Source of the DNA: Sinomonas sp. R1AF57
Lineage (GTDB): Bacteria > Actinomycetota > Actinomycetes > Actinomycetales > Micrococcaceae
DNA: 64,000 nucleotides
NCBI RefSeq assembly: GCF_002224485.1
Contig: NZ_CP022463.1
Location: 684,119-748,118 of the forward strand
Direction of reading: 5' to 3'
Position numbers and translations under genes: made by a program. Positions 3,438 through 42,379 of this stretch are shown in pieces (positions within the stretch are counted from its first letter, which is position 1; each line of letters opens with the position of its first letter). A model generated the notes under the pieces. The model did no database searches and was not told the DNA's origin. It saw only the letters and a list, made by a program, of their open reading frames with translations.

Positions 3438-3520
3438 GTACCTGAGAAGCGTGTGGGGCGGGAAGAGCTGTACCCGAAACGTCCTTGGGGCGAAAATGGC
3501 GTACCCGAAACAGGGTGGGC
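3438..3520. repeat. 31-bp periodic array, GTACCCGAAAC core
   Basis: The core occurs at 3470-3480 and 3501-3511 (31-bp spacing), with a degenerate copy GTACCTGAGAA at 3438. The spacer carries the partly conserved GGGGCG element seen in the other arrays. It lies just beyond the iolB stop codon at 3527. Together with the hairpin and the 21-bp array it fills the 321-bp gap 3206-3526, in which I see no gene. Confidence 0.8.
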
Positions 3521-3526
3521 GGTGGG

Positions 3527-4432
3527 TCAGGCGGTGAAGGGGAGGCGGGCGTCCACCTGCTGCGCGTCCCAGGTGGAGCGGATCCAGCCGTGGTGGGGGT
3601 CGTCGCTGATGAGCCACTCGCGCACGCGGCCCGGGCCGGCCATCACATTGAGGTAGTAGAGGTCGTAGCCGGGAGCCGCCATCGCGGGCCCGTGCCAGCC
3701 GTGGGGGACCAGCACGACGTCGCCGGTGCGCACCTCGGCGTTGACGTCGATCGGCCGCTCGTCCGAGGCGTACACGCGGGCGTACCCGACCGGGTCCTGG
3801 CCGGCGGCGGTGTCGGTGCCCGTGGGGGACCCGGGGGCCAGACGGGTCTCGAAGTAGTAGATCTCCTCGAGGAAGGTCTCCCCGTCCTTCTCCTCATCGT
3901 GCTTGTGCGGAGGGTAGGAGGACCAGTTCCCTGCAGGCGTGATGACCTCGCACACGATGAACCGGTCCGCTTCGAGCGCGGCGGGCGTGCCGAAGTTGTG
4001 CACCTGGCGCGAGCAGTTCCCCGCCCCGCGCAGCTCGACCGGCGTCTCTTCAGCCCGCACGAGCCGCGTCGGGTACTCCGCCTTCGCGGGGGCGAGGGCG
4101 ACGGCGACGCGGCCGCCCTCCGCGCTGGAGATCTCCACCGCCTTCCCGATGCCCGTGTAGAGGACGTCGCTCGGGCCGGAGAAGACCGAGGCCCGGCCGC
4201 GCAGGGAGTGGGCGACGCCGTCGACCGTCACCTCGAAGGCCCCGGTGAGCGGCACGACGATCCGCTCCTCGCCAGTGGCCTCGAGGGAGACCGAGGCGCC
4301 GGGCGCGAGCTCGGCGACCTTGAGACCCGTGTGCTCCCAGCCGTCCACGGCCGTGGAGCTGTCGTGGCCGCCGAGGGAGACCTGCCAGTCGCCGTCCTTG
4401 GCCGTTCCGAGGGGGTAGACCCACTCTGCCAT
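3527..4432 (-). CDS. iolB: 5-deoxy-glucuronate isomerase
   Basis: A 301-residue bicupin protein matching IolB, which converts 5-deoxy-glucuronate to 5-deoxy-2-keto-D-gluconate, the fourth step of myo-inositol breakdown. The family signature is visible: SSYPPHKHDEE (about 170-180, metal-binding His residues), FLEEIYYFE, and the C-terminal VLVPHGWHGP and DLYYLNVMAGP segments. Length is normal for the family (270-300). ATG 4432 is preceded by GAAAGGA. It lies 36 bp downstream of the GntR gene on the same strand, so regulator and isomerase are likely co-transcribed, away from the iolE/iolG operon. Confidence 0.93.
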   Translation of the reverse strand: MAEWVYPLGTAKDGDWQVSLGGHDSSTAVDGWEHTGLKVAELAPGASVSLEATGEERIVVPLTGAFEVTVDGVAHSLRGRASVFSGPSDVLYTGIGKAVEISSAEGGRVAVALAPAKAEYPTRLVRAEETPVELRGAGNCSRQVHNFGTPAALEADRFIVCEVITPAGNWSSYPPHKHDEEKDGETFLEEIYYFETRLAPGSPTGTDTAAGQDPVGYARVYASDERPIDVNAEVRTGDVVLVPHGWHGPAMAAPGYDLYYLNVMAGPGRVREWLISDDPHHGWIRSTWDAQQVDARLPFTA

Positions 4433-4468
4433 GTGATTCCTTTCGTCAGGTGCCGCTCGGGCGCTGCC

Positions 4469-5209
4469 TCAGCGCTGGACCAGCGTCATCTCGAAGCTGT
4501 ACGAGTCCGCCCGATAGACGTGCCGGCCGGTCTCGACGTTGCGCCCGGTGTCGTCCACGGCGGTGCGCTCCATCGTCACGAGCGCCGAGCCGGGCGCCGT
4601 CTCGAGGAGCTCGGCCTGGTACTCGTCGGCAACCGTGGCCCCGATGCGCTGGTTCGCGAGGCGGAAGTTCACCCCCGCGTCGCGCAGGATCTGGTACATG
4701 CCGCTCTGGCGCAGGCCTTCCTCGGTGAGCTCGGCGACGTCGTCGCGCACCCAGTTCTCCATGAGGGCCAACGGCTTCTCGCCGACCGAGCGCAGGCGCG
4801 TGAAGTGGTAGACGCCGACGTCGGGCGGCAGCTGCAGCGTCTCGGCGATGTCCCGCTCGGCGGGGCCGTGACGGAACGCGAGCACCTTCGTGGTGGGCTG
4901 CTTGCCGCCACGCGAGAGGTCGTCGAAGAGGCTCGAGAGCTCGAGGTGCCGGCGCACCTGGCTCGCGACGACCTGGGTGCCCACGCCGCGCTTGCGCACG
5001 AGCAGGCCGGCGCGGACCAGCTCGTCCATCGCCTTGCGCATGGTCGGGCGCGAGAGGTTGAGCTGCGCCGCGAGCTCGATCTCGTTCTCGAGCCTCGAGC
5101 CGGGCTCCAGAGTGCCGCTGCGGATCATCGCCTCGATCCCCTGGACCACCTGGTGGTACAGGGGAATGGGGGACGAGCGGTCGATTGGGATGTTGAGGCT
5201 GGCTGCCAT
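4469..5209 (-). CDS. GntR/HutC-family regulator (UTRA domain)
   Basis: A 246-residue transcription factor. Residues about 10-78 form the GntR winged helix (PIPLYHQVVQGIEAMIRSG, LSRPTMRKAMDELVRAGLL); residues about 95-240 form the UTRA ligand-binding domain (FRHGPAERDIAETLQL, VGEKPLALMENWV). Such proteins usually repress catabolic operons and release DNA on binding a sugar or pathway intermediate. The Shine-Dalgarno sequence AAGGAGG lies directly before ATG 5209. Its position between iolB and the ABC importer suggests it controls the inositol regulon. The recurrent TTGAYAGGACAAA motif (first copy 5265-5277, 56 bp upstream of this gene) is my candidate operator; that link is inference. Confidence 0.85.
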   Translation of the reverse strand: MAASLNIPIDRSSPIPLYHQVVQGIEAMIRSGTLEPGSRLENEIELAAQLNLSRPTMRKAMDELVRAGLLVRKRGVGTQVVASQVRRHLELSSLFDDLSRGGKQPTTKVLAFRHGPAERDIAETLQLPPDVGVYHFTRLRSVGEKPLALMENWVRDDVAELTEEGLRQSGMYQILRDAGVNFRLANQRIGATVADEYQAELLETAPGSALVTMERTAVDDTGRNVETGRHVYRADSYSFEMTLVQR

Positions 5210-5264
5210 GACCCCTCCTTGGGTCGAGGTGACGGGTCCTGTGTCCTCGAACCGCTTTGTTTAT

Positions 5265-5277
5265 TTGATAGGACAAA
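5265..5277. promoter_or_regulatory. Candidate GntR-type site TTGATAGGACAAA
   Basis: Located between the divergent GntR and ABC-importer genes. It is one of four close copies; the others are 8763-8775 (TTGACAGGACAAA), 10132-10144 (identical to the last) and 18602-18613 (TGTCAGGACAAA). In three cases it sits at a -35 region. At 18602 it lies just upstream of a separate -35, so it is not simply the -35 hexamer. A weaker copy is ATGTGTGGACAAA at 5412-5424. Confidence 0.5.
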
Positions 5278-5387
5278 TTCTCCACGCTCATCCTAGCAGT
5301 CGCAACCCCATTCCTCCGGGAATTCCGGCGGAAGGATGGTCGGCCGGCGCTTGTCTGCAGGAGGTGACAAACCATCATTGATGCTTC

Positions 5388-5397
5388 GGAGCGCTCC
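5388..5397. promoter_or_regulatory. LacI-type operator GGAGCGCTCC
   Basis: A perfect 10-bp palindrome followed by AAAAATTAG, upstream of the ABC importer. The same core followed by AAAATTAG recurs at 10167-10176 in front of the first oxidoreductase module. A weak promoter may overlap it (TTGATG at 5378-5383, about 17-18 bp before AATTAG/ATTAGT); another TTGACA is at 5428-5433. Together with the GGACAAA motifs this accounts for the 310-bp gap 5210-5519, in which I see no gene. Confidence 0.6.
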
Positions 5398-5519
5398 AAA
5401 AATTAGTGCGTATGTGTGGACAAACTGTTGACAGCGGTGATGTACGTCACCCAAGATCGACGCAAGAGCCTCAGGGGCCGGCGCAGCCGCCGGCCAGGCC
5501 GAGATCAAAGGAGATTTCC

Positions 5520-6512
5520 GTGACCAAGTTTTCGTGGCGCCGCGCAGCTGTTGTGGCCCTCGCCGTGCCCGCGCTCGCCCTCTCGGCCTGCTCGGCCGGC
5601 GGCAAGGCCGGTGACACCGGCGGCGGCAGCGGCGGCGGCCAGGCTGCCTCGACGCCCAGGATCAAGGTCGCGCTCGTCACGCACGCAGCAGCGGGCGACA
5701 CGTTCTGGGACATCGTCCGCAAGGGCGCCGAGGAGGCGGCGTCGAAGGACAACGTGGACCTGCAGTACCTCAACGACCCCGAGGCGGGGCGCCAGGCCCA
5801 GCTCGTCCAGCAGGCGATCGACTCGAAGGTCGACGGCATCGCCGTTACCCTCGCAACGCCCGATGCACTCAAGGACGTCGTGAAGAAGGCGACGGACGCC
5901 GGCATCCCCGTGGTGAGCCTCAACGCGGGCGAGGACGTCTCCGCGAAGCTCGGGGCGTTCACCCACTTCGGCTCCAACGAGAAGCTCGCCGGCGAGACGG
6001 TCGGCACGCGCCTCGCGTCCGATGGGTACAAGCACCCGATCTGCGTCATCCAGCAGCAGGGCCACGTCGGCCTCGAGAACCGCTGCGCGGGCGTCAAGGC
6101 CAAGGTCCCCGGCACGGAGATCCTCTACGTCAACGGCCAGGACATGACCTCGGTGCAGTCCACCGCGACCGCCAAGCTCCAGGCCACCAAGGACGCCGAC
6201 GTCATCATCGGCCTCGGCGCCCCGATCACCCTGACCCTGCTCAAGTCCGTCACGGACGCCGGCAGCTCCGCCAAGGTTGCCAGCTTCGACCTCAACGCCG
6301 AGCTCGCGCAGAAGATCGCCGACGGGACGGTCATCTTCACCATCGACCAGCAGCCGTGGCTCCAGGGGTACATGTCCGTCGACGCGCTCTGGCAGAACAA
6401 GCGCGGCGGCTTCAAGATCGGCGGCGGCCAGCCCGTCCTGACCGGTCCGACCATCGTCGACAAGTCCAACGCTGCCGACGTCGTCAAGTTCGCCCAGCAG
6501 GGCGTCCGCTAA
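5520..6512 (+). CDS. Sugar ABC transporter substrate-binding lipoprotein
   Basis: A 330-residue periplasmic-binding-protein type 1 (ribose/xylose family, Peripla_BP_4). GTG 5520 is chosen because AAGGAG lies at 5508-5513 and the protein then begins with a lipoprotein signal: MTKFSWRR, a hydrophobic core and lipobox LSAC with Cys24. A Gly/Ser-rich linker follows, then the binding fold (KVALVTHAAAGDTFWDIVRKG; SKVDGIAVTLATPDAL; GIPVVSLNAGED). It would be anchored outside the membrane and deliver a sugar or cyclitol to the permease encoded next. Context suggests inositol or a related polyol. The operator at 5388-5397 implies LacI control. Confidence 0.9.
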   Translation: MTKFSWRRAAVVALAVPALALSACSAGGKAGDTGGGSGGGQAASTPRIKVALVTHAAAGDTFWDIVRKGAEEAASKDNVDLQYLNDPEAGRQAQLVQQAIDSKVDGIAVTLATPDALKDVVKKATDAGIPVVSLNAGEDVSAKLGAFTHFGSNEKLAGETVGTRLASDGYKHPICVIQQQGHVGLENRCAGVKAKVPGTEILYVNGQDMTSVQSTATAKLQATKDADVIIGLGAPITLTLLKSVTDAGSSAKVASFDLNAELAQKIADGTVIFTIDQQPWLQGYMSVDALWQNKRGGFKIGGGQPVLTGPTIVDKSNAADVVKFAQQGVR

Positions 6513-6522
6513 CACCGGATCG

Positions 6523-6567
6523 CGGGCTGCGCGGCGCGCATCGTCCAGAAGTGCGCCGCGCGGCCCG
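6523..6567 (+). terminator. Intercistronic hairpin after the binding-protein gene
   Basis: The arms 6523-6540 (CGGGCTGCGCGGCGCGCA) and 6552-6567 (TGCGCCGCGCGGCCCG) pair with one G-U and a 2-nt bulge over an 11-nt loop. A stable stem between a binding-protein gene and its permease gene often stabilises the upstream message or partly terminates it, so that more binding protein than permease is made. That function is inferred here. Confidence 0.6.
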
Positions 6568-6587
6568 ACCACCAAGGAGCATCCCCC

Positions 6588-7640
6588 ATGGCAACAGCAA
6601 CCCTGCCGTCGGCGCCAGCGCCGCTTGCGGACGAGCGGATCGGGCGCCGCGGCCCGTTCCAGAAGCTCCTCGGGCGTCCCGAGGTCGGGGCCCTCGTGGG
6701 CGCCGTCGTCCTGTTCATCTTCTTCTCGTTCGTCTCGAGCACCTTCCTCCAGCCGAACGCCTTCGCCACCGTGCTGTACGGGTCCTCGACCATCGGGATC
6801 ATGGCCGTCGGGGTGTCGCTGCTGATGATCGGCGGCGAGTTCGACCTCTCCGCCGGCGTCGCCGTGATCTCGTCGGCCCTGACCGCCTCGCTGTTCTCCT
6901 GGAACTTCGGCGTTAACGTGTGGGTCGGCGTCCTGCTCGCCCTCGTCGTCTCCCTCGGCATCGGGTTCGTGAACGGCTGGATCCTCGTCAAGACCAAGCT
7001 GCCGTCCTTCATCGTCACCCTTGCCACGTTCCTCATGCTCACGGGCCTGAACCTCGCCCTGACCCGGGCGATCGGCGGGGCGGTGTCCTCGCCGTCGATC
7101 GGGGCGATGGACGGGTTCTCGGCGGCCAAGGCGATCTTCGCCTCCTCGGTCTCCATCGCCGGGGTGGATGTGAAGATCACGGTCTTCTACTGGGTCGTCC
7201 TGGTCCTCATCGCCTCCTGGGTCCTCCTGCGGACCCGGGTGGGGAACTGGATCTTCGCCTCCGGCGGCGACGCCAACGCGGCACGCGCCGTCGGCGTCCC
7301 CGTCACGGCGACCAAGATCGGCCTGTTCATGGGCGTGGGCTTCTGCGGGTGGCTGCTGGGCATGCACAACCTCTTCGCGTTCGACGCCGTGCAGTCCGGG
7401 GAGGGCGTGGGCAACGAGTTCCTCTACATCATCGCCGCGGTCATCGGTGGCTGCCTGCTCACCGGCGGGTACGGCTCGGCCGTGGGCGGGGCGATCGGCG
7501 CGTTCATCTTCGGCATGGCCAACAAGGGCATCGTGTACGCGCAGTGGAACCCGGACTGGTTCAAGTTCTTCCTTGGCCTGATGCTCCTGCTGGCCACGAT
7601 CGTGAACCTCATCGTCAAGCGCCGCGCGGAACTGAAGTAG
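6588..7640 (+). CDS. Sugar ABC transporter permease (RbsC family)
   Basis: A 350-residue integral membrane protein of the branched-chain/ribose permease superfamily with about ten hydrophobic segments. Family features include LMIGGEFDLSAGVAVISSAL (near residues 79-98), NGWILVKTKLPSFIVTLATF and ANAARAVGVPVTATK, the cytoplasmic coupling loop. It forms the channel of the importer together with the ATPase encoded 15 bp downstream. ATG 6588 is preceded by AAGGAG. The gene order binding protein, permease, ATPase differs from the E. coli rbs order. Only one permease gene is present, so it probably forms a homodimer. Confidence 0.92.
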   Translation: MATATLPSAPAPLADERIGRRGPFQKLLGRPEVGALVGAVVLFIFFSFVSSTFLQPNAFATVLYGSSTIGIMAVGVSLLMIGGEFDLSAGVAVISSALTASLFSWNFGVNVWVGVLLALVVSLGIGFVNGWILVKTKLPSFIVTLATFLMLTGLNLALTRAIGGAVSSPSIGAMDGFSAAKAIFASSVSIAGVDVKITVFYWVVLVLIASWVLLRTRVGNWIFASGGDANAARAVGVPVTATKIGLFMGVGFCGWLLGMHNLFAFDAVQSGEGVGNEFLYIIAAVIGGCLLTGGYGSAVGGAIGAFIFGMANKGIVYAQWNPDWFKFFLGLMLLLATIVNLIVKRRAELK

Positions 7641-7655
7641 GACGGAGTGGCCACC

Positions 7656-8603
7656 ATGGCACAGCACAACGCAGCCCAGCACATCAGCAACAAAGACCTC
7701 CTCGCGGGCGAGAGCGACCCGCTGACCGACCGGCCGGTGCACCTGCTGCACCTGGACTCTGTGGGCAAGCACTACGGGAACGTCATTGCCCTGCGGGACG
7801 TGACGATGGCCGTGGACAACGGCCGGGTGACCTGCGTCCTGGGCGACAACGGGGCGGGGAAGTCGACCCTGATCAAGATCATCGCCGGGCTCCACCAGCA
7901 CGACGAGGGCACCTTCACCATCATGGGCGAGGAGCGGAAGCTCTCCAGCCCACGCGAGGCTCTGGATGCCGGAATCGCCGCCGTGTACCAGGACCTAGCG
8001 GTGGTCTCGCTCATGCCGATCTGGCGGAACTTCTTCCTCGGCTCCGAGCTGACCACCGGCGTCGGCCCGTTCCGGCGCATGGACGTGAACCGGATGAAGG
8101 AGATCACCAAGAAGGAACTGGCGCAGATGGGCATCGACCTGCGCGATGTCGAGCAGCCCATCGGCCAGCTCTCCGGCGGCGAGCGCCAGTGCGTGGCGAT
8201 CGCCAGGGCCGTGTACTTCGGGGCCAAGGTCCTGATTCTGGACGAGCCCACCGCCGCCTTGGGTGTGAAGCAGTCCGGGGTGGTCCTGCGGTACATCCTC
8301 CAGGCCCGTGACCGGGGCCTCGGAGTCATCTTCATCACCCACAACCCGCACCACGCCTACCCCGTCGGGGACCGGTTCCTGCTCCTGAAGCGCGGCCGCT
8401 CGATCGGCTACTACGACAAGAAGGACATCACTCTCGAGGAGCTCACCGCCCAGATGGCCGGCGGCGCCGAGCTCGCAGAGCTCGCCCACGAGCTCGAACA
8501 GCTCGGCGGCCACACCCAGGCGCTCAAGGAGGTCAAGGCCGAAGCCGCCGCGGTCACGGCGGAGGCGCCCTCCTCCGAGCGGGACCTCTCGACCCGCCCC
8601 TGA
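7656..8603 (+). CDS. Sugar ABC transporter ATP-binding protein (single NBD)
   Basis: A 315-residue ATPase with Walker [10 protein letters not shown] (about 63-71), Q-loop AAVYQDL, signature LSGGERQ (about 172-178), Walker [13 protein letters not shown] (192-203) and the H-loop His in FITHNPHHA. It has one nucleotide-binding domain, unlike the ~500-residue two-domain RbsA/XylG ATPases, so it should work as a homodimer. The C-terminus after residue 265 is Ala/Glu-rich and not recognised. ATG 7656 is preferred over an in-frame GTG at 7647 because GGAG at 7644-7647 is correctly spaced for the ATG. It is the last gene of the importer operon and is followed by hairpins. Confidence 0.9.
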
Positions 8604-8611
8604 CCCCCTTT

Positions 8612-8672
8612 CATCGACTGCTCCACAAGTGTCGTTATCGAGCCTCAGACCGACACTTCTGGAGCAGTCGAT
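8612..8672. terminator. Long hairpin, family copy 1
   Basis: The left arm 8613-8634 (starting ATCGACTGCTCCACAAGTGT) pairs with 8651-8672 at 21 of 22 positions around a 16-nt loop. The same sequence with a perfect 24-bp stem is found at 12502-12567, and both loops contain a GTTAT(C)GAGCC sequence. It lies 9 bp after the ATPase gene, so termination is a likely role, but the sequence conservation between copies suggests a dispersed element. Confidence 0.75.
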
Positions 8673-8687
8673 CGGGGTGTGGGGGAC

Positions 8688-8738
8688 GCGCACGACGGCG
8701 CGGCGCGGCACCCAGCCCGCCGCGCCGCCGTCGTGCGC
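8688..8738. terminator. Hairpin built from inverted CGCACGACGGCG copies
   Basis: The 12-mer at 8689-8700 and its reverse complement at 8726-8737 form the outer arms of a G+C-rich hairpin with a 3-nt bulge (ACGGCGCGGCG against CGCCGCGCCGCCGT). It stands after the ABC importer operon and before the next promoter, consistent with a second terminator. Confidence 0.6.
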
Positions 8739-8762
8739 TGGTATGCGGGTGACGAGCGCACC

Positions 8763-8819
8763 TTGACAGGACAAAGTCGGAGCGTCTCAGATGGTGACAA
8801 CGTTACCTTGGAACGTTCC
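8763..8819 (+). promoter_or_regulatory. Promoter, GGACAAA site and GGAACGTTCC operator
   Basis: TTGACA (8763-8768) begins the shared motif TTGACAGGACAAA. A plausible -10 is TCAGAT (8787-8792, 18-bp spacing). The perfect palindrome GGAACGTTCC is at 8810-8819, with the flanks TT and AC. The palindrome is identical to that at 18659-18668. The unit now drives only a gene remnant (8843 onwards). Confidence 0.6.
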
Positions 8820-8842
8820 ACTAACCCGGCGGAGGAATCGGC

Positions 8843-8912
8843 ATGAGCATCAGAGTCGGCGTGATCGGCGCCGGAATCATGGGCGCGGAGCGCGTCCGTT
8901 ACCGGGCGCTGC
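8843..8912 (+). pseudogene. Truncated Gfo/Idh/MocA oxidoreductase remnant
   Basis: After the Shine-Dalgarno sequence CGGAGGAATCGGC, ATG 8843 opens with MSIRVGVIGAGIMGAERVR, a perfect N-terminal Rossmann motif of an inositol-dehydrogenase-type protein. Family resemblance ends after roughly 20-25 codons. The frame runs on only to about 9037 with unrelated low-complexity residues, and no remaining oxidoreductase domain is found before the LacI gene. The following ~140 bp contain short direct repeats (CAGAAGATG, CCTCAGGA) and an inverted AACTGCACA/TGTGCAGTT pair, possibly marking the deletion junction. A frame of 64 codons is open, but I doubt it is a functional protein. The 450-bp stretch 8604-9054 holds nothing else that I recognise as a gene. 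Confidence 0.7.
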
Positions 8913-9054
8913 AGATGTCAGGAACTGCACAAGCCGCGGCCGGAAGCGGCCACTGGGGGCGTCGTCCGTCCCCGAGATGTGCAGTTTCGGGCGCCGCTCA
9001 GAAGATGTCCCCTCAGGACGTGACCCTCAGAAGATGACCCTCAGGAGAGGACCT

Positions 9055-10068
9055 TCAGACGGAAGCCGCTGGGGCCGTCGAGGCGCGGACCACGAGCTCG
9101 GGCGCCAGGAGCTCGCGGTGCGGGGGAGCGTCAGGGTGGTCCAGCCGGGAGAGCAGGGCCCGGGCGGCGGCGGCGCCGACCTCTCGTGAGTGTCCGTCCA
9201 CGCTCGTGAGCTGGAGGTACCGGTAGGCGGCGAGAGGCGAGTCGTCGTGACCGACAAGCGATACCTCGGCCGGCACCGACAGGCCGCGTTCGCGAAGCGC
9301 CGCCAGCGCCCCGACCGCCATGACGTCGTTGCCTGCGACGATCGCCGTCACGCCCGCGGTCCCGTCGAGCAGGTCGCACGCAGCGGCATAGCCGTCCTCC
9401 TCGGAGGTCCCGCCGTCCTCGCCTGTCACGGCGGGCGCGAGGCCGGCCGCCGCCATCGCGGCCTCGTATCCCCGTCGCCGATGCGCGCCGGGCCCGCTGC
9501 GGCCGGTCAGGTGGCCGATGCGCCGGTGCCCCAAACCGATGAGGTGCTCAGTTGCGAGACGCGCGCCCAGCTCGTCGTCGCCGGTCACGATATCGGCGTC
9601 CTGCGCGCCGCCCAGTTCGCGGGTGCCGGCGACGACGATCGGCGCGCCCACGCCGTCGAGCGCGCCGGGCGCGGGCTCGGCGGCGACGACGAGCGCGTCG
9701 ACGTGCTGGGCGAGGAAGCCGTCCACGGGATTGCGGCCCGAAGCCGCGTCGAGCTGCAGATCGGCGACGCTCGCGGTGTACCCCGCAGGGTCGAGGACGG
9801 AGCGCAGCCCCGCGAGGAGCTCGACGAACCAAGGGTTGTGGAAGTCATCGATGAGCACCCCGACCGTGCGCGTGCGCTGGCTGGCGAGGGCTGCGGCGGC
9901 CCGCGACGGACGGTAGCCCAGCTCTTCGATGGCGGCCTCGACGGCCTCCCGCCGCGCCTCGCTCACGTGCGGAGAACCGCGCAGCACGAGCGAGACGAGC
10001 GACTTCGACACGCCGGCCCGCTGCGCGACATCGTAGATCGTCGGACGGGGGCTCGTATCGGCTGGCAC
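9055..10068 (-). CDS. LacI-family regulator 1
   Basis: A LacI/GalR repressor of about 337 residues. The helix-turn-helix and hinge read TIYDVAQRAGVSKSLVSLVL and ELGYRPSRAAAAL. The sugar-binding core follows (RTVGVLIDDFHNPWFVELLAGL; GVTAIVAGNDVMAVGALAAL; SLVGHDDSPLAAYRYLQLTS). GTG 10068 (12 codons after an upstream GTG at 10101) is preferred because GATGGA precedes it and the HTH then starts near residue 8. The gene is divergent from the oxidoreductase at 10225, and the palindrome GGAGCGCTCC lies between them, the likely operator. An identical core before the ABC importer suggests that it also controls uptake. Confidence 0.88.
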   Translation of the reverse strand: MPADTSPRPTIYDVAQRAGVSKSLVSLVLRGSPHVSEARREAVEAAIEELGYRPSRAAAALASQRTRTVGVLIDDFHNPWFVELLAGLRSVLDPAGYTASVADLQLDAASGRNPVDGFLAQHVDALVVAAEPAPGALDGVGAPIVVAGTRELGGAQDADIVTGDDELGARLATEHLIGLGHRRIGHLTGRSGPGAHRRRGYEAAMAAAGLAPAVTGEDGGTSEEDGYAAACDLLDGTAGVTAIVAGNDVMAVGALAALRERGLSVPAEVSLVGHDDSPLAAYRYLQLTSVDGHSREVGAAAARALLSRLDHPDAPPHRELLAPELVVRASTAPAASV

Positions 10069-10131
10069 GGGTCCATCATGGCACCCGCCGCTGACGGGCA
10101 CGCGCTGGGAAACGCCCCGCCGCGCTCTCTA

Positions 10132-18668: not shown

Positions 18669-18689
18669 CACAACACGATGGAGTGCCTC

Positions 18690-19727
18690 ATGAAGACTGT
18701 CACGCTCGGGCTCGTCGGCGTCGGCCGGATCGGCGTCATGCATGCCCGGAACATCGCGGCAATCGCACCGCAGCTCGCCGCGCGCGGCGTCGAGCTGCGC
18801 CTCGCGCTCACCGACGTGGCCGAGGAGCACGCCCGCGGCGTTGCCGCCGAGGTCGGCGCGGAGTTCGTCCCCGGGGGCGCGGCCGGGCTCATCGCCCATG
18901 GCGTCGACGCGCTCGTCGTCGCGACCGGCACCCAGACCCACCCCGAGCTCATCCGCGCCGGCGTCGACGCCGGCCTGCCCGTGTTCTGCGAGAAGCCGGT
19001 CGCGGGCTCCGTCGCAGAGTCCCGGCCCGTGCTCGAGTACATCGCCGAGAAGGGCGGCACGGTCCAGATCGGCCACCAGCGCCGCTTCGACGCCGGCTAC
19101 CTCGAGGCCAAGCGCCGCTTCGACGCGGGAGAGATCGGCTGGATCCACTCGCTGCGCGCGATGACCGGGGACATGGTCCCGCCGTCGGTGGAGTTCATCG
19201 CCACCTCGGGCGGGCTCTTCCGCGACTGCTCCGTGCACGACTTCGACATCCTGCGCTGGCTCACCGGCCGCGAGATCACCGAGGTCTACGCGAAGGGCTC
19301 CAACAACGGCGACCCGGCGATCGGCGAGGTCGGCGACGTCGACACGGCGCTCGCGGTCGTCACGTTCGACGACGGCACGGTCGGCACCGTCTCCGCGACC
19401 CGCTACAACGGTGCTGGCCACGACGTGCGGCTCGAGATCCAGGGCTCGAAGTCCTCGGTCATGGTCGGGCTCGACGACAAGACCGCGCTGCGCTCGACCG
19501 AGGCCGGGGTCGCGTTCCCCGCGGGCGAGACGCACAAGACCTTCGCCGAGCGGTTCGACGCCGCGTACCGCGCCGAGCTTGTGGCGTTCGTCGAGCTCGT
19601 GCTCGGCGAGCGGGAGAATCCCTGCACCCCGGAGGACGCGGTGGCAGCGTCCCGCGTGGCCGACGCAGCCCAGGAGTCCCTCGAGACCGGCGCCCCCGTC
19701 CAAGTGGGGGTCCCCGCCCGCGCCTGA
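18690..19727 (+). CDS. iolG: Inositol 2-dehydrogenase-type oxidoreductase (module 3)
   Basis: A 345-residue Gfo/Idh/MocA protein very like bacterial myo-inositol 2-dehydrogenases: GLVGVGRIGVMHARNI (about 7-22), CEKPVAGS with Lys102, and RDCSVHDFDILRWL giving Asp179 and His183, the same spacing as the Bacillus triad. It also has the IolG-like C-terminal ATRYNGAGHDVRLEIQGS. ATG 18690 is chosen for GGAG at 18680-18683; ATG 18678 is an alternative four codons upstream. It is the second IolG-type gene in the window, under a different LacI operator, so it may handle another inositol isomer. Its 3' end runs straight into the 31-bp tandem array. Confidence 0.83.
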   Translation: MKTVTLGLVGVGRIGVMHARNIAAIAPQLAARGVELRLALTDVAEEHARGVAAEVGAEFVPGGAAGLIAHGVDALVVATGTQTHPELIRAGVDAGLPVFCEKPVAGSVAESRPVLEYIAEKGGTVQIGHQRRFDAGYLEAKRRFDAGEIGWIHSLRAMTGDMVPPSVEFIATSGGLFRDCSVHDFDILRWLTGREITEVYAKGSNNGDPAIGEVGDVDTALAVVTFDDGTVGTVSATRYNGAGHDVRLEIQGSKSSVMVGLDDKTALRSTEAGVAFPAGETHKTFAERFDAAYRAELVAFVELVLGERENPCTPEDAVAASRVADAAQESLETGAPVQVGVPARA

Positions 19728-19882
19728 CCCGTTTCGGGTACGCCAAACTCGCGCCAGGCCCGTTTCGGGTACGCCAAGTTCGCGCCCCGCCCGTTTCGGG
19801 TACGCCAAGTTCGCGCCCCGCCCGTTTCGGGTACGCCAAGTTCGCGCCCCGCCCGTTTCGGGTACGCCAAGTTCGCGGCAGG
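19728..19882. repeat. Five tandem 31-bp units (GTTTCGGGTACGCCAA core)
   Basis: Units start at 19728, 19759, 19790, 19821 and 19852, each CCCGTTTCGGGTACGCCAAG followed by TTCGCGCCCCG, with only a few differences in units 1 and 5. This is the most regular member of the window's 31-bp array family. It starts one base after the iolG-type stop codon. An inverted single core (GTACCCGAAAC, 19937-19947) stands 55 bp further, 23 bp before the next start codon. No spacer variation as in CRISPR is seen. Confidence 0.9.
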
Positions 19883-19969
19883 GCGGGTTCCGGCCACGCC
19901 GTCGCGTACCCGGAGGCCGCTCGGGCGCGATCATCTGTACCCGAAACGGAGTCCCGCTACGCTGGCCCC

Positions 19970-21094
19970 ATGGACCCCGCCCCAGCGCTCAACCCGATGC
20001 CGCGCACTCTGGAGGTCGAGTCGCTTGAGCAGTTCGACGCGCTCGTCGAGGCGGGGGCCACCGAGATGACCGGTTGGCATGTCCAGTCAGTCGACCTCAC
20101 GGAGCGCTCCGGCGTGCTGAAGGCGCTCAACCCGGCGGCGGCGATGTTCCTCGGCTGCGCCCTGCAGCCCGGCATGGAGCAGTCGCTGCGGGCAAGGGGC
20201 GCGCTGGTCTTTCCGATACTCCCCGGTGTGCCGTTCAACCCCTACCGCCCGACCCTCTACACCGGTCCCGAGCTCTACGAGGGGGTCCTCGCCCGCCCCT
20301 ACGAGGAGACCCCGGACGCCCGGATCTACGCCTGGACCAAGCGCCAGGGCCGAGCCGGCGTCGAGTCCGCCCTGTCCGCGGCCCTCCACGACCACCACAT
20401 CGGCGACGCCCTCCTCGACACGCTCGAGGAGCTCGGCGCGGGGAGGCGCGTGGTCGGCGTCATGGGCGCCCACGCGGCGGCGCGGGGGAGCCACACGTAC
20501 GACGACGCCGCGCGGCTCGGGCGCGCGATCGCCGCGGCGGGGCACGTGGTCGCCACGGGCGGCGGTCCCGGGGCGATGGAGGCGGCGAACCTCGGGGCGT
20601 ACCTCGCGGCCGTGCCCGACCGCGAGTTCGCCGCGGCGCTCCGGGAGATCGCCGTCGTCCCCTCGTTCCGCCCGTCCGTGAGCGCGTGGGCGCGCGTGGC
20701 CCTCGCGGTGCTCGGGCGCTTCCCGGGCGGGACGCCGAGCCTCGGCATCCCAACCTGGTTCTACGGGCACGAGCCGCCGAACATGTTCGCCACCCACATC
20801 GCCAAGTACTTCGCGAACTCGGTGCGCGAGGCGGTGCTGCTCGAGAAGTGCACCGGGGGCGTCGTGTTCCTCCCCGGCGCGGCCGGCACCGTCCAAGAGG
20901 TGTTCCAGGACGCGTGCGAGAACTACTACGGCACTCCCGAGACGATCACGCCCATGGTCCTCGTCGGGGTGCGCCACTGGACCGAGGAGCTGCCCGCGTG
21001 GCCCCTGCTGGCGCGCCTTGCCGAGGGGCGGGGCATGGCCGGGCGCGTGCATCTCGTCGACTCGGTCGAGGAGGCGGTCGCGGTCCTCGGCTGA
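19970..21094 (+). CDS. LOG/TIGR00730-family Rossmann protein
   Basis: A 374-residue protein whose C-terminal two-thirds resemble the LOG (lysine-decarboxylase-like) nucleotide-binding fold: GVMGAHAAARGSHTYDDAA (163-181), ATGGGPGAMEAANLG (about 195-209) and LPGAAGTVQEVFQDA (300-314). The canonical PGGxGTxxE motif reads PGAAGTVQE, with Ala replacing the second Gly. Residues 1-150 form an extra N-terminal domain not in the ~190-residue phosphoribohydrolases. Known LOG enzymes cleave cytokinin-type nucleotides to bases; whether this long form does so is unknown. It stands alone between two repeat arrays, and ATG 19970 lacks a clear Shine-Dalgarno sequence. Confidence 0.75.
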   Translation: MDPAPALNPMPRTLEVESLEQFDALVEAGATEMTGWHVQSVDLTERSGVLKALNPAAAMFLGCALQPGMEQSLRARGALVFPILPGVPFNPYRPTLYTGPELYEGVLARPYEETPDARIYAWTKRQGRAGVESALSAALHDHHIGDALLDTLEELGAGRRVVGVMGAHAAARGSHTYDDAARLGRAIAAAGHVVATGGGPGAMEAANLGAYLAAVPDREFAAALREIAVVPSFRPSVSAWARVALAVLGRFPGGTPSLGIPTWFYGHEPPNMFATHIAKYFANSVREAVLLEKCTGGVVFLPGAAGTVQEVFQDACENYYGTPETITPMVLVGVRHWTEELPAWPLLARLAEGRGMAGRVHLVDSVEEAVAVLG

Positions 21095-21225
21095 CCCCGC
21101 AACGGACCGGACGGGACCCCGCAACGGACCGGACGGGACCCCGCAACGGACCGGACTGGACCCCGCAACCAGTGCGGTTGTGGGGTCCCGTCCCGGTGGT
21201 TGCGGGGTCGTGTCCCGCTGGTCGG
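21094..21225. repeat. 22-bp tandem array with inverted arms
   Basis: Units at 21094, 21116 and 21138 (ACCCCGCAACGGACCGGACG plus two bases), with a fourth partial unit at 21160, are followed by inverted degenerate copies (GGTTGTGGGGTCCCG about 21177-21191 and GGTTGCGGGGTCGTG about 21198-21212). The block fills the gap between convergent genes; inverted copies allow a stable hairpin, so it may terminate transcription. Confidence 0.8.
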
Positions 21226-35293: not shown

Positions 35294-35311
35294 TCAATTG
35301 AGGAGGCGGCA

Positions 35312-35812
35312 ATGCCTGTCGATCCCGAGACCGCGCGGGAACTCGTCCACCGGGTCTTCGACCTCCAGCGCGTCGTGCGCTGCCTCGCCAACTCGGAGCT
35401 CAAGCACCACGACCTCGGCGTCGCCTTCCAGGGCGTGCTGCGCATGGTCGCCGAGCACGGGGGGCGCGCCGTCGAGATCGCCTCGCGGCTCGGGGTGAGC
35501 GCCCCGGTCCTGAGTCGGCACCTCTCCGACCTCGAGGCCCTCGGGTACGTCGAGCGGCACCGCGACCCCGAGGACCGCAGGGCCCAGCTCATCGCGCTCA
35601 CCGAGTCCGGGTGGGCCGCGCTGCGCGAGATCGAGGAGCACCGGATCGCCCGGCTCCAGGGCTACCTCGCCGACTGGGACGAGGGGCAGGCGGCCGCCGC
35701 GGTCGAGGGCCTGTCCCAGCTCTCGGACGCCCTCCGGCGCGGCTCCGCCGACCGCCGCCTCACAGCCGTGACCACTACGACCGCACAGGAGGAAGCGCGT
35801 GCAGCCCACTGA
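35312..35812 (+). CDS. MarR-family regulator
   Basis: A 166-residue winged-helix protein. The DNA-binding part is HGGRAVEIASRLGVSAPVLS, RHLSDLEALGYVERHRDPED (about 50-92), with the wing RRAQLIALTESG. ATG 35312 follows GAGGAGG. Its 3' end overlaps the start of the efflux-pump gene by 14 bp, so the two are one transcript. MarR repressors next to DHA2 pumps normally sense toxic compounds and derepress the pump; palindromes over the promoter fit autoregulation. Confidence 0.9.
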   Translation: MPVDPETARELVHRVFDLQRVVRCLANSELKHHDLGVAFQGVLRMVAEHGGRAVEIASRLGVSAPVLSRHLSDLEALGYVERHRDPEDRRAQLIALTESGWAALREIEEHRIARLQGYLADWDEGQAAAAVEGLSQLSDALRRGSADRRLTAVTTTTAQEEARAAH

Positions 35813-37850: not shown

Positions 37851-37874
37851 GGCCCTGTCGGAGGCTTCTCATCG

Positions 37875-37917
37875 ATCAGCCAGCCTGCGGACAATCGCTG
37901 TCCGCAGGCTGGCTGAT
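37875..37917 (+). terminator. Perfect 19-bp stem terminator
   Basis: The arm 37875-37893 (ATCAGCCAGCCTGCGGACA) pairs perfectly with 37899-37917 over the loop ATCGC. It lies 24 bp after the efflux-pump stop codon. The sequence TAGTCCTCAG follows, so there is no strong U-tract. Confidence 0.85.
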
Positions 37918-38013
37918 TAGTCCTCAGGACTGATGCCCCGCAGGTGCGCGCAGGCCTACGCTTGACACGCCCCTTTCGGCATCCCGCAGGGGCCCAAGAC
38001 TCGAAGGACTTCG

Positions 38014-39783
38014 ATGCTCCTCACACTCATCCGGCGCTACAGCGCCCGCTACTGGCTCTGGATTCTGGCTGTGGTTGTCTTCCAGCTCGCGACCACCATT
38101 GCGACCCTCTACCTGCCCAGCATCAACGCCCAGATCATCGACCAGGGCGTCGCGAAGGGCGACACCGGGTACATCTGGCGCCAGGGCGCCCTCATGCTCG
38201 GCATCGCGCTGGCACAGGTGATCACCGCGATCGCGGCGGTCTACTTCGGCTCGAAGACCGCGATGGCCTTCGGCAGGGACCTCCGGCAGGCAGTGTTCCG
38301 CAAGGTCACGTCCTACTCTGCACAGGAGGTGCAGTCCTTCGGTGCGCCGACCCTGATCACCCGCGGGACCAATGATGTCCAGCAGGTCCAGATGGTCCTC
38401 CTGATGGGGCTGAACTTCATGGTGTCCGCGCCGATCATGTGCGTGGGCGGCATCATCATGGCGCTTCGCGAGGACCTCGGGCTCTCGTGGCTCGTCTGGG
38501 TGTCCGTGCCGGTGCTGTTCGCGATCGTCGGCTACCTCGTGTACCTGCTCCTGCCACTCTTCCGCGGCATGCAGAAGCGGGTCGACGGGATCAACGGCGT
38601 GCTGCGCGAGCAGATCATGGGCATCCGAGTGGTGCGCGCCTTCGTGCGCGAGCCGTTCGAGGAAGGGCGGTTCGCCGAGGCGAACAAGGCCCTCACCGAC
38701 ATCTCCCTCCGCGTCGGCGCGATCTTCGTGCTCATGTTCCCGATCATCATGATGCTCCTGCACCTGTCCACCGCCGCGGTCCTGTACTTCGGCGGCCAGC
38801 GTGTGGACGCGGGCGAAATGCAGGTCGGGTCGCTCACGGCGTTCCTCCAGTACCTCCTGCAGATCCTCATGGCCGTCATGATGGGCACGTTCATGGCCAT
38901 GATGATCCCGCGCGCCTCCGTCTGCGCCGACCGCATCGGCGAGGTGCTCGCCGTCGTGCCCTCGATGGCCGCTCCCGGCGATCCGCAGATCCCGGCCAAG
39001 CGCGAGGGCGTCGTCGAGTTCCGCGACGTCTCGTTCTCGTATCCGGGCGCGGAGGCCGCGGTCCTCTCGGGCCTCACGTTCACCGCGCGGCCGGGGCAGA
39101 CGGTGGCGATCATCGGTGCGACCGGTTCGGGCAAGACGACCCTGCTGTCCCTCATCCCGCGCCTCTACGACGCGGAGCGCGGCCAGGTGCTCCTCGACGG
39201 GGTGCCCGTAGACAGGATGCCCCGCTCCGAGATCACCTCCCGCGTGGCGATGGTCCCGCAGCGGCCCTACCTGTTCTCGGGCTCGATCGCACACAACCTC
39301 CGGTTCGGCCGCGAGGACGCGAGCGAGGATGAGCTCTGGCAGGCACTCGACGTGGCGCAGGGAGCGGACTTCGTCCGCGAGAAGCCCAAGGGCCTCGAGG
39401 CCGGGATCGCGCAGGGCGGCACGAACGTCTCCGGCGGCCAGCGCCAGCGCCTGTGCATCGCGCGCGCCCTCGTCGCGAAGCCCGCGGTGTACCTGTTCGA
39501 CGACTCCTTCTCGGCCCTCGACGTCACCACGGACGCGAGGCTGCGCCGCGCCCTGAAGAAGCAGACCGCCGACGCGACGGTCATCATCGTGGCCCAGCGG
39601 GTGTCCACGATCATCGACGCGGACCTCATCCTCGTGCTCGACAAGGGCAAGATCGTGGACCGCGGCACGCACGAGGAACTGCTCGAGACGTCGCCGACGT
39701 ACCAGGAGATCGTGCAGTCGCAGATCACGGCCGAAGAGGCCGCGAGCGTCTCCTCCGGCAGCAAGGAGGTGCACGGTGGCTGA
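38014..39783 (+). CDS. ABC exporter half-transporter, degenerate-site subunit
   Basis: A 589-residue type IV exporter: a six-helix transmembrane domain (about 15-310) followed by an ATPase domain with Walker A GATGSGKTT (367-375), signature VSGGQRQR (about 471-478) and Walker B YLFDDSFSALD (493-503). The catalytic Glu after Walker B is Asp, as in the non-consensus subunits of heterodimeric exporters such as BmrC/TmrB-type pairs. ATG 38014 follows GAAGGA. It overlaps the next subunit gene by 8 bp. Probable substrates are drugs, lipids or peptides; none is evident from context. Confidence 0.92.
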   Translation: MLLTLIRRYSARYWLWILAVVVFQLATTIATLYLPSINAQIIDQGVAKGDTGYIWRQGALMLGIALAQVITAIAAVYFGSKTAMAFGRDLRQAVFRKVTSYSAQEVQSFGAPTLITRGTNDVQQVQMVLLMGLNFMVSAPIMCVGGIIMALREDLGLSWLVWVSVPVLFAIVGYLVYLLLPLFRGMQKRVDGINGVLREQIMGIRVVRAFVREPFEEGRFAEANKALTDISLRVGAIFVLMFPIIMMLLHLSTAAVLYFGGQRVDAGEMQVGSLTAFLQYLLQILMAVMMGTFMAMMIPRASVCADRIGEVLAVVPSMAAPGDPQIPAKREGVVEFRDVSFSYPGAEAAVLSGLTFTARPGQTVAIIGATGSGKTTLLSLIPRLYDAERGQVLLDGVPVDRMPRSEITSRVAMVPQRPYLFSGSIAHNLRFGREDASEDELWQALDVAQGADFVREKPKGLEAGIAQGGTNVSGGQRQRLCIARALVAKPAVYLFDDSFSALDVTTDARLRRALKKQTADATVIIVAQRVSTIIDADLILVLDKGKIVDRGTHEELLETSPTYQEIVQSQITAEEAASVSSGSKEVHGG

Positions 39784-41863
39784 TCGCCGCTTCAAGAGGC
39801 AGGGCAGGAACGAGGTCCGGAAGGAAGCCGTGTCCCAGGACGGAGCACCCCAGAGCGGCCAGGTGGTCGCCGAAGCCGAGGAGATCCTCGAGGAGGAGTA
39901 CCGCCCCACCGAGGCCGACGGCGGCATGTTCGGCGAATTGCCGGCCAAGAAGGCCAAGAACTTCGGCCCCAGTGCCAAGCGGGTCATGGGGCTGCTGAAG
40001 CCCGAGCGGGCGCTGATGAGCGTCGTCGTGCTCTTCATCCTCGTCTCTGTGGTGCTCACCGTGATCGCCCCGAAGATCCTCGGCCAGGCCATGGATGTCA
40101 TCTTCGCCGGTGCGATCGGGAAGCAGATGCCTGCCGGCGTCACGAAGGAGCAGGTCGTCGAGGGCCTGCGGGCGCAGGGCCAGGACAACTTCGCGGACAT
40201 GCTCTCAGGCATGAACCTCGTGCCGGGACAGGGCATCGACTTCTCGCGGCTGACGTTCCTCATCGCCGTCGTGCTGCTCATGTACTTCGTGGCCGGCGTG
40301 TTCATGTGGGCGCAGGGCTACATCCTCAACCGGCTCGTCATGCGGGTCGTCTACCGGCTCCGTCAGGACATCGAGGCGAAGATCAACCGCCTCCCGCTCG
40401 GCTACTTCGACACCCGGCAGCGCGGCGACGTGCTCTCCCGGGTGACGAACGACGTGGACAACATCCAGCAGGGCCTCCAGCAGGCGTTCTCGCAGCTGCT
40501 GTCCTCGCTCCTGCAGGTGCTCGGCATCGTCGTCATGATGTTCATCGTGTCGTGGCAGCTCGCCCTCATCGCCCTCATCGCGCTGCCCCTCTCAGGCGTG
40601 GTCGCGGGCGTGATCGGCTCGCGCAGCCAGAAGATGTTCCAGTCGCAGTGGAAGAACACGGGTCTGCTCAACGGACAGATCGAGGAGTCCTTCTCGGGCC
40701 ACGACCTCGCGACGGTGTTCGGCCGCCAGGCGGACATGGTGCGCCGGTTCGACGAGAAGAACGAGGAACTGTACCGGGCCTCGTTCAACGCGCAGTTCGT
40801 GTCCGGCATGATCTTCCCAGTCATGAACTGGGTGAGCTACCTCGCCTACGTGGGCATCGCCGTCGTGGGCGGCCTGCGGGTCGCCGCCGGCCAGATGAGC
40901 CTCGGCGACGCGACCGCGTTCATCCAGTACTCCCGCGAGTTCACGCAGCCGCTGGGCCAGATCGCGGGCATGGCCAACATGCTCCAGTCCGGCGTCGCCT
41001 CCGCCGAACGGACCTTCGAGCTGCTCGACGCCGACGAAGAGGAGCCGGAGACGGCCACTTCGCACCTGCCGGCGGTCACGGACGGGCACGTCGACTTCGA
41101 GCACGTCTCGTTCTCCTACTCCGAGGACAAGCCGCTCATCGAGGACCTGTCGCTCACGGCCGAGCCGGGCCACACCGTCGCCATTGTCGGCCCCACCGGC
41201 GCCGGCAAGACGACCCTCGTGAATCTCGTGATGCGGTTCTACGAGATCCAGGCCGGCCGGATCCTGCTCGACGGCGTGGACATCCGCGACCTCTCGCGGG
41301 CCGAACTCCGCTCGAAGGTGGGCATGGTCCTGCAGGATGCGTGGCTGTTCGGCGGGACGATCTACGACAACATCCGCTACGGGAACCTCGATGCGACGGA
41401 AGAGGAGGTCATCGCCGCGGCGAAGGCCACCTACGTGGACCGGTTCGTCAGGGCCCTTCCCGACGGCTACCAGACCGTCATCGACGAGGAGGGCACCAAC
41501 GTCTCCGCCGGCGAGAAGCAGCTCATCACGATCGCCCGCGCCTTCGTCTCCAACCCCTCGCTGCTGATCCTCGACGAGGCCACCTCGTCCGTGGACACCC
41601 GCACCGAGCTGCTCGTGCAGAAGGCCATGGCCGCGCTCCGCACGGACCGCACCTCGTTCGTGATCGCCCACCGGCTCTCCACGATCCGGGACGCGGACAC
41701 GATCCTGGTCATGGAGAACGGCAAGATCGTCGAGCAGGGCCGGCACGACGAACTCCTAGAGCGCGGCGGCGCCTACCACCGGCTCTACATGAGCCAATTC
41801 GCGGGGGGCATCGATCTCGACGAGCAGACCGCAGCGTCGGCCGGAGCGCCGCCCCGCACCTAG
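39776..41863 (+). CDS. ABC exporter half-transporter, catalytic subunit
   Basis: A 695-residue partner of the preceding gene. About 75 polar N-terminal residues precede the six-helix domain, which has an enlarged loop after helix 1 (IGKQMPAGVTKEQVVEGLRA, LSGMNLVPGQG). ATPase motifs: Walker A GPTGAGKTT (471-480), a variant signature VSAGEKQ (about 575), and a canonical Walker B/Glu LLILDEATSS (596-605). Signature variation here and the Asp in the partner place one degenerate and one active ATP site in the dimer. GTG 39776 lies inside the upstream gene after AAGGAGG. It is the last gene before a repeat-rich gap. Confidence 0.92.
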   Translation: MADRRFKRQGRNEVRKEAVSQDGAPQSGQVVAEAEEILEEEYRPTEADGGMFGELPAKKAKNFGPSAKRVMGLLKPERALMSVVVLFILVSVVLTVIAPKILGQAMDVIFAGAIGKQMPAGVTKEQVVEGLRAQGQDNFADMLSGMNLVPGQGIDFSRLTFLIAVVLLMYFVAGVFMWAQGYILNRLVMRVVYRLRQDIEAKINRLPLGYFDTRQRGDVLSRVTNDVDNIQQGLQQAFSQLLSSLLQVLGIVVMMFIVSWQLALIALIALPLSGVVAGVIGSRSQKMFQSQWKNTGLLNGQIEESFSGHDLATVFGRQADMVRRFDEKNEELYRASFNAQFVSGMIFPVMNWVSYLAYVGIAVVGGLRVAAGQMSLGDATAFIQYSREFTQPLGQIAGMANMLQSGVASAERTFELLDADEEEPETATSHLPAVTDGHVDFEHVSFSYSEDKPLIEDLSLTAEPGHTVAIVGPTGAGKTTLVNLVMRFYEIQAGRILLDGVDIRDLSRAELRSKVGMVLQDAWLFGGTIYDNIRYGNLDATEEEVIAAAKATYVDRFVRALPDGYQTVIDEEGTNVSAGEKQLITIARAFVSNPSLLILDEATSSVDTRTELLVQKAMAALRTDRTSFVIAHRLSTIRDADTILVMENGKIVEQGRHDELLERGGAYHRLYMSQFAGGIDLDEQTAASAGAPPRT

Positions 41864-41884
41864 CCCCCCGCGCCCTCCTGCGGC

Positions 41885-41957
41885 GTTTCGGGTACGCCAA
41901 ATTCGCGTTGGTGGCGTTTCGGGTACGCCAAATTCGCCCCCGGCGCGTTTCGGGTAC
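41885..41957. repeat. 31-bp periodic array, forward type, three cores
   Basis: GTTTCGGGTAC cores start at 41885, 41916 and 41947, exactly 31 bp apart; the first two continue GCCAAATTCGC. The array begins 22 bp after the ABC exporter stop. It faces the reverse-type array at 42224 across about 265 bp. Confidence 0.85.
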
Positions 41958-42223
41958 AGCAACTCTGGCGCGGGCTGCAGGCGGACGGGGGAGGTGAGCC
42001 TCGAGGCACGGAGACGCCTCGACGCGAGGGAGGCGACTCGAGGGCGTCCTGCCCGCGACAGGGCGTCTCACCATCACCCGCAACCCGTCTCATCCGCATC
42101 TCGGCGCCTCAGTCGGGGAGAAAACCCGTGCCCTCTGCCAGACGGCGGTTCACCCGGCCTGACCGAGAAGTCGGCCAGCAGGGCGGGTAGCGTGTCGGGC
42201 GCGGGGCGCCGACGGCGTCGTGC
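41958..42223. other. Non-coding stretch between opposed 31-bp arrays
   Basis: No gene with family features is seen in the whole gap 41864-42385. The central part contains scattered inverted repeats (CCTCGAGG-type, and CTGACCGA/TCGGCCAG at about 42159-42178) and a degenerate version of the 12-mer (near 42211-42224). It could encode a small structured RNA, but I cannot identify one. Confidence 0.5.
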
Positions 42224-42379
42224 GTACCCGAAACGGCGTGCGTGTGGATTAGCTGTACCGGAAACGGCGTGGGGCGTGGATTATCTGTACCCGAAACGGC
42301 GCGGGTGTCGATTATCTGTACCCGAGACGGCGTGGGCGCGGAATAGCTGTACCCGAAACGGTGTGGGGCGCGTGGCAGG
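42224..42379. repeat. 31-bp periodic array, reverse type, five cores
   Basis: GTACCCGAAAC cores (two with one change) start at 42224, 42255, 42287, 42318 and 42349: spacings 31, 32, 31, 31. Each is followed by GGCG, a G-rich segment, then GGATTATCT or GGAATAGCT before the next core. The array ends just beyond the ferredoxin stop codon (42386). It is the clearest evidence that the 31-bp period persists while the inter-core sequence drifts. Confidence 0.88.

Follow-up and report, generated by a model that had tools for sequence, protein, structure and literature searches.

Helically spaced, mirror-image repeat arrays at gene ends in Sinomonas as candidate sites of a DNA-binding protein

We analysed a 64,000-bp stretch of Sinomonas sp. 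R1AF57 (Micrococcaceae; genome G000, one contig, C1, of 3.94 Mb), positions 684119–748118, referred to here as the window, together with its relatives. The window is locally dense in intergenic arrays in which an 11-bp core recurs every 31 or 32 bp, and in much of the genus such arrays form mirror-image elements placed mostly just past stop codons. We propose, with a probability of roughly 40%, that the arrays are sites for a putative Sinomonas DNA-binding protein and would constitute a two-way transcription barrier at gene 3' ends. The original prediction, made from the window alone, had described four places with such cores and offered either an array bound by a polymeric or nucleoid protein or a mobile-repeat family; its spacing and geometry hold, and copy-and-paste mobility is disfavoured. 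The mirror anatomy, the tie to stop codons, the restriction to one genus, the concerted loss and a second repeat family are new.

The core has the form GTACCCGAAAC at all four places of the window and follows a 31-bp step with a single 32-bp exception (42255 to 42287). Exact plus-strand cores lie at 3470, 3501, 19937, 42224, 42287 and 42349 and exact minus-strand cores at 19731, 19762, 19793, 19824, 19855, 41885, 41916 and 41947, accompanied by one-mismatch cores at 42255 and 42318 and a degraded copy (GTACCTGAGAA) at 3438. With up to two mismatches allowed, the window holds 32 core matches against a mean of 8.6 (largest 15) in shuffles, which together with the core positions confirms the four predicted places. 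Genome-wide, the exact core occurs 56 times and its reversed control once. Two cores separated by 20 bases (core-N20-core, up to three mismatches) give 67 matches, at least two of which are opposite-strand readings of near-palindromic units, and none for the reversed control; joined within 2 kb, the matches form 26 loci. The 31-bp spacing is thus enriched elsewhere in the genome, a result on which the original prediction had made itself depend.

In the genomes searched, the family is restricted to one genus. Among 58 relatives searched whole, exact core pairs were found in 12 of 15 Sinomonas genomes and in 0 of the 43 others, and an order-wide sample of 396 genomes returned pairs in two of the three Sinomonas drawn and in 0 of 393 others, in two of which the reversed control itself matched. 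When 84,980 species were scanned with one genome each, 101 of the at least 108 stretches listed came from Sinomonas and 7 from other bacteria; membership outside the genus was rejected because these seven, among the matches listed, are runs of a 15-bp unit. Within the genus, pair counts range from 0 (G003, G007 and G012) and 1 (G014) up to 176 (G001, S. albida). In twenty random 20-kb stretches from five Sinomonas genomes, regions with at least two units were absent, which is unsurprising at a density of only about 26 loci per 3.9 Mb.

Most element statistics given below derive from loci fetched for having arrays, chiefly from S. albida, S. humi, S. susongensis, S. gamaensis and R1AF57 itself, and gene calls throughout are simple codon-usage calls. 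Read along one strand, an element consists of GTYTCGGGTAC repeats, a centre, and GTACCCGARAC repeats, the latter being the window core as refined genome-wide, since its third-from-last base is A or G. This order is observed in 89 of the 90 intergenic regions having both arms, and 38 more regions are single-armed. The sense-strand unit is CGTYTCGGGTAC followed by a degenerate tail, RSMWAMTC, and a C-rich, G-poor spacer. The GGGGCG-like element reported between cores accordingly survives as a G-rich composition (C-rich on the sense strand) and not as a fixed motif, and the two reported endings, TTTGGC and TTATCT/TAGCT, are real but represent the two commonest forms of the degenerate tail, reversed. 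Distances between adjacent cores (pairs with at most one mismatch in all, at most 130 bp apart; n = 451) were 31 bp in 310 cases, 32 bp in 116, 33 bp in 4, 30 bp in 2 and other values in 19, so that 426 pairs keep a 31- or 32-bp spacing even though the sequence between the cores differs, as had been claimed; the 32-bp step is the norm in S. atrocyanea and G013. A coding tandem repeat does not describe these arrays, whose period of 31 or 32 bp is intergenic and not a multiple of three within a gene. Spacers of neighbouring units inside one array have 15 to 16 of 20 bases in common whereas those of different loci are on average no more alike than column-shuffled ones, which suggests that arrays grow mainly by local tandem duplication.

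The arrays are tied to gene ends. Of 235 distinct blocks with at least two units, 168 are stop-facing at a median distance of 16 bp (38 within 4 bp) and 47 are start-facing at a median of 118 bp (minimum 23); of the remaining blocks, 9 border the edge of a locus, 10 are separated from the next gene by over 600 bp and 1 sits within a called gene. In the array-selected loci, the share of regions of at least 15 bp that carry units is 72 of 130 where genes converge, 50 of 327 where they run in tandem and 6 of 127 where they diverge. The 29 array regions of R1AF57 are divided into 16 convergent, 11 tandem and 2 divergent, compared with 19, 83 and 19 in a background of 121 regions drawn from the window and from random stretches totalling 80 kb (the window's three array regions included); convergent regions are therefore over-represented (16/29 versus 19/121, p = 3e-5). 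In 35 two-armed tandem elements, 97 units are stop-facing and 102 start-facing (p = 0.64), and core quality is comparable, at 0.21 and 0.29 mismatches per unit, respectively (p = 0.41). Because start-facing arms match the others in length and upkeep, the element is a symmetric DNA element whatever the direction of transcription. This bears on the reading of the arrays as an RNA signal past the stop codon, either for Rho loading or for an RNA-binding protein, which would account for sense-direction spacers that are C-rich, G-poor and begin at the stop codon. Such a signal would need no fixed spacing, and the start-facing arms are equally long and kept, with a C content just slightly lower (0.358 versus 0.406, n = 28, p = 0.10); we regard it as highly improbable.

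Comparison of orthologous positions at mfd, grpE-dnaJ and the window's ABC transporter gene provides an unbiased check of conservation. Downstream of mfd, at least two units are present in 11 of 15 genomes, and the remaining four are the family-negative G003, G007, G012 and G014. On the Mfd tree, array absence takes three changes, two of them forced by well-supported branches, and the negative G007 clusters with the array-rich G001 (support 95/95). The array family has been lost as a whole in these 4 of 15 genomes, the pattern expected if a trans factor was lost. The grpE-dnaJ intergenic region, inside a heat-shock gene cluster, carries a 2+2 element (L012; G000 C1 at about 2947.5–2947.7 kb) in 10 of 15 genomes, eight from the ortholog check and G006 and G009 added from whole loci; a reduced single pair remains in G012, G003 and G014 (partly by eye), and G002 and G007 have none. 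Its cores are constant and its spacers vary, both spacers being one base longer in the atrocyanea group, where the tails differ too. Units past the window's ABC transporter gene occur in just 4 of 14 genomes, so array positions are not all old. A further figure, units on both sides in 64 of 73 orthologous pairs, carries a selection bias, the loci having been fetched for their arrays; it also includes two non-Sinomonas loci (L106 and L112).

The distance between the facing innermost cores is also constrained. In 90 elements, picked as a minus arm followed by a plus arm and hence no test of arm order (the order count above came from intergenic regions), the gap peaks at 8–11, 18–19, 37–41 and 48–50 bp. 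Crude removal of near-copies left 81 of the 90, and the statistics assume that elements are independent. Of the 81, 49 have gaps of at most 65 bp; these fit a 10.3-bp period best and give R = 0.70 for 10.5 bp, at a nominal p of 4e-11, and 39 of the 49 lie within 1.5 bp of helical phase against 14 expected; gaps of 20–65 bp alone give a best period of 11.1. Favoured facing gaps alongside nearly empty ones are more readily reconciled with double-stranded DNA than with an RNA loop. The most reasonable explanation for a spacing kept despite spacer divergence, combined with set facing distances at a 10.3–10.5-bp period, is selection on double-stranded DNA geometry, in line with the original preference for DNA-face phasing over coding. 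The same spacing, facing gaps and symmetric tandem arms would equally suit the main rival at the DNA level, a chromosome-architecture or supercoil element in which arrays anchor loops or draw a nucleoid protein or gyrase to gene ends, the places where positive supercoils accumulate, and hardly affect termination. The preference for convergent regions fits this rival, but a first core 2–4 bp past the stop in 38 of 168 blocks is closer than such a role needs, and we consider it unlikely.

At the RNA level the main rival is a paired-arm structure, in which GUYUCGGGUAC of one arm would pair with GUACCCGARAC of the other to give a bidirectional terminator or an mRNA end-protector. The arms are complementary by construction, and a perfect stem of at least 10 is found in 20 of 32 elements with gaps up to 20 bp. 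The inner stem at grpE-dnaJ is kept by symmetric changes (CTTTC/GAAAG in G000; GGTTC/GAACC in G003 and G014), innermost cores are identical slightly above expectation (28/90 versus 22.6, p = 0.045), and past mfd, where other genomes have the array, G003 and G014 show a hairpin (by eye). Facing cores, however, fully pair in 45 of 90 elements against 43.2 in within-species permutations (p = 0.30), perfect stems of at least 10 are rare once the gap is wider (5 of 58 elements), and single arms occur (20 convergent, 12 tandem stop-facing). Pairing would explain neither the 31/32-bp period nor the empty loop sizes of 12–17, and we find this rival doubtful. A hairpin centre as a general part of the element was rejected on the 53 of 58 wide-gap elements lacking such a stem. 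Arrays as strict hairpin substitutes were rejected too, the local hairpin excess over shuffles in convergent regions showing a weak trend only (−8.8 kcal/mol without and −6.5 kcal/mol with wide-gap arrays). Some centres (L006, L116, L026, L010, L013 and others) contain a recurrent GC hairpin, ACGACGGCGGG...CCCGCCGTCGT, perhaps a common terminator of the genus.

Dispersed intergenic repeats with mirror-image ends and copy numbers from 0 to 176 pairs across species might instead be a mobile family, resembling repetitive extragenic palindromes (REPs), miniature inverted-repeat transposable elements (MITEs) or transposon ends, spread by a putative enzyme. An inner 9-bp centre, AGATSATCT, is common to eight S. 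albida elements and nearly so in two more, and near-identical spacers at different loci show a small excess over column-shuffled ones in three of four genomes (1.5% versus 0.35% in S. albida); both allow for some copying or gene conversion, and the patchy occurrence after the ABC transporter gene would agree with movement. Mean spacer identity between loci, in contrast, is at or below the column-shuffled value in all four genomes, unlike the full-sequence sharing of MITEs, and class-linked tails alone could produce the small tail excess. Like REPs, bacterial interspersed mosaic elements (BIMEs) and REP doublets forming hairpins (REPINs), the arrays are extragenic (1 of 235 blocks intragenic), but they lack the alternating palindromes of those families, the unit being asymmetric and set head to tail within an arm. 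REPs driven by a REP-associated tyrosine transposase (RAYT) were rejected, PF01797 being present in 0 of 15 Sinomonas genomes and in 5 of 14 control genomes. A mobile unit with cargo was likewise rejected: centres of about 1 kb hold unrelated genes (six proteins checked: an NAD-binding protein, an FMN reductase, weak matches of RecX/endonuclease-like and helix-turn-helix type, and one without a match), and no Rfam RNA was found in 9 loci. One element queried against plasmids and one against phages gave no match. With unalike spacers across loci, old positions common to species and no RAYT, the mobile family that the original prediction had allowed is quite improbable.

A long directional site, a step of about three turns, mirroring, old positions and all-at-once loss are most simply caused by a cooperative, site-specific DNA-binding protein, and the location of arrays directly past stop codons suggests a two-way transcription barrier; the protein, its cooperative binding and the barrier effect are what these features most likely reflect. 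The unit of about 20 bp (CGTYTCGGGTAC plus the RSMWAMTC tail) would be the directional site of the predicted protein. A 31–32-bp step would place bound molecules on one DNA face and permit cooperativity, the mirror arms would bring two protein rows together at set distances, and the complex at gene 3' ends would stop or attenuate transcription arriving from both sides. DNA-bound proteins are able to block RNA polymerase, as one study describes (PMC4132739), and for eukaryotic RNA polymerase I (Pol I) a roadblock protein and an RNA hairpin are reported to end transcription (PMC12366685).

Several observations weigh against the protein barrier. A model of two favoured gaps, 9 and 18.5, supplemented by multiples of 31–32, likewise accommodates 35 of the 49 short gaps without a general helical rule; between 66 and 130 bp the 10.5-bp signal is weak (R = 0.43 at a nominal p of 0.018, with 7.2 as the best period), and at 66–300 bp it is absent (p = 0.37). 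Any 3' end versus none, in R1AF57 alone, is not significant (27/29 versus 102/121, p = 0.37). Both arms are found in 3 divergent regions and one arm in 3 more, ordinary hairpins stand alongside arrays in many regions, and where the first core follows a stop by 2–4 bp, a polymerase halted ahead of that core would have scant space. Full arrest would also be odd for the grpE-dnaJ element within its heat-shock gene cluster, which points to attenuation instead. A bolder and more tentative version of the barrier proposal is that Sinomonas ends or attenuates dozens of genes by helix-phased mirror rows of protein, making these the bacterial equivalent of roadblock terminators in eukaryotes, that a second repeat family might mark a second such protein, and that a genome lacking either family would have lost the protein belonging to it.

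The second family is represented in the window by a core, GACCCCGCAAC, at 21093–21222 with a 22-bp step, its first copy lying over a stop codon and two inverted copies preceding the next gene's stop. Pairs occur in 9 of 15 Sinomonas genomes (at 21 bp in G011; control 0) and in 0 of 280 non-Sinomonas genomes of the Micrococcaceae (9/295 overall). They lie at 3385, 246756, 350771, 1637783 and 2916854 of G000 C1 and at many places in G001, G002, G003, G011 and G014; the carriers include G003 and G014, in which the first family is scarce. These arrays too are at gene ends, often with a mirror arm, although their occurrence in either arm order and between divergent genes (L191) indicates looser placement. 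That one genus has two such families, with periods close to two and to three turns of the helix, raises the likelihood of a helix-phase rule. A third family, GTCGGAAWCTCACCA, guessed from G007, was dropped after matching 12 times across 5 of 15 genomes at up to one mismatch, with 1 match in the control. More broadly, intergenic tandem arrays with periods of 12–70 bp number 32 in 464 kb of Sinomonas (10 of these in the window) versus 8 in 353 kb of other genera of the Micrococcaceae, and periods 17 and 21 recur (L143–L162 plus the window, compared with L163–L182).

Two of the places originally listed separately in the window, 41885–41957 (minus strand) and 42224–42359 (plus strand), are both arms of one head-to-head element. 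The left arm has three units at a 31-bp step and starts 21 bp past the stop of the ABC transporter gene (39830–41863, plus strand), the centre (41958–42223) is 266 bp long, and the right arm has five units (steps of 31, 32, 31 and 31 bp) and faces the stop of a 2Fe-2S ferredoxin-like gene (42386–42706, minus strand). In a second element, a left minus-strand arm of five units at a 31-bp step (19731–19865), whose first core lies 3 bp past the stop of a GFO/IDH/MocA oxidoreductase gene (18678–19727, plus strand), stands opposite a single exact plus core at 19937 with a degraded neighbour at 19906. The centre (19866–19936) measures 71 bp to the exact core and includes the degraded unit, and the right arm (19906–19947, plus strand) is start-facing, upstream of a gene with an SLOG cluster4 match (19970–21094, plus strand). 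Finally, 3438–3511 is a plus arm of three units (3438, degraded, 3470 and 3501) without a partner, 15 bp from the stop of an iolB-like gene of the KduI/IolB family (3527–4432, minus strand). On the opposite side, where there is no left arm, a perfect hairpin (3246–3290, by eye) follows a xylose-isomerase-like TIM barrel gene (2426–3205, plus strand). Further short intergenic tandem arrays stand by gene ends at 3306–3381 (21 bp), 45524–45591 (21 bp; every unit able to form a small hairpin, by eye) and 8997–9059 (28 or 14 bp). Rfam also reports 5_ureB_sRNA, a family from Helicobacter, at 60454–60729 (plus strand; 81 bits, cut-off 40), a match for which conserved ureB coding sequence may be the whole cause.

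Bacterial gene-end repeats are common and are usually palindromes or mobile copies, and Sal-box arrays are known as Pol I roadblock terminators. Among the open-access papers listed on such arrays, on Sinomonas repeats and on roadblocks, we found none describing the elements reported here, and the matches listed there for the core string are unrelated by title. From locus to locus the Sinomonas repeats have nothing in common but a directional site and an approximately three-turn geometry, in mirror pairs that persist at the same genes across much of the genus and have disappeared together in some species. Such a pattern suggests an undescribed DNA-binding protein whose many sites lie at gene 3' ends, and the idea that bacteria generally use DNA-bound barriers as a gene-end device becomes directly testable in one soil genus. 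REP/BIME sequences with RAYT (PMC2817692) and REPINs (PMC3116915) are described as similarly genus- or species-specific, dispersed, extragenic and regularly spaced with inverted copies, and protein-binding and termination roles have likewise been proposed for REP/BIME (PMC2817692). The Sinomonas unit differs from those REP/BIME sequences in being directional and not palindromic, in its direct repeats of 31–32 bp per arm, in its unshared spacers and in the absence of a RAYT domain. The TAACTGA direct repeats of Beggiatoaceae (PMC4679880) mostly lie just before start codons, whereas Sinomonas arrays follow stops with helical spacing and mirror pairs. Intrinsic terminators of GC-rich bacteria occupy the same places, and some Sinomonas centres are strong hairpins, but 53 of 58 wide-gap elements have no strong perfect hairpin and periodic sites are no part of a terminator. 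The eukaryotic Pol I terminators (PMC12366685) would work alike, with a DNA-bound protein halting the polymerase and an RNA hairpin helping; the Sinomonas arrays are instead bacterial, mirror-image and present at many loci, their protein is putative, and the likeness we draw is one of operation, with no homology claimed.

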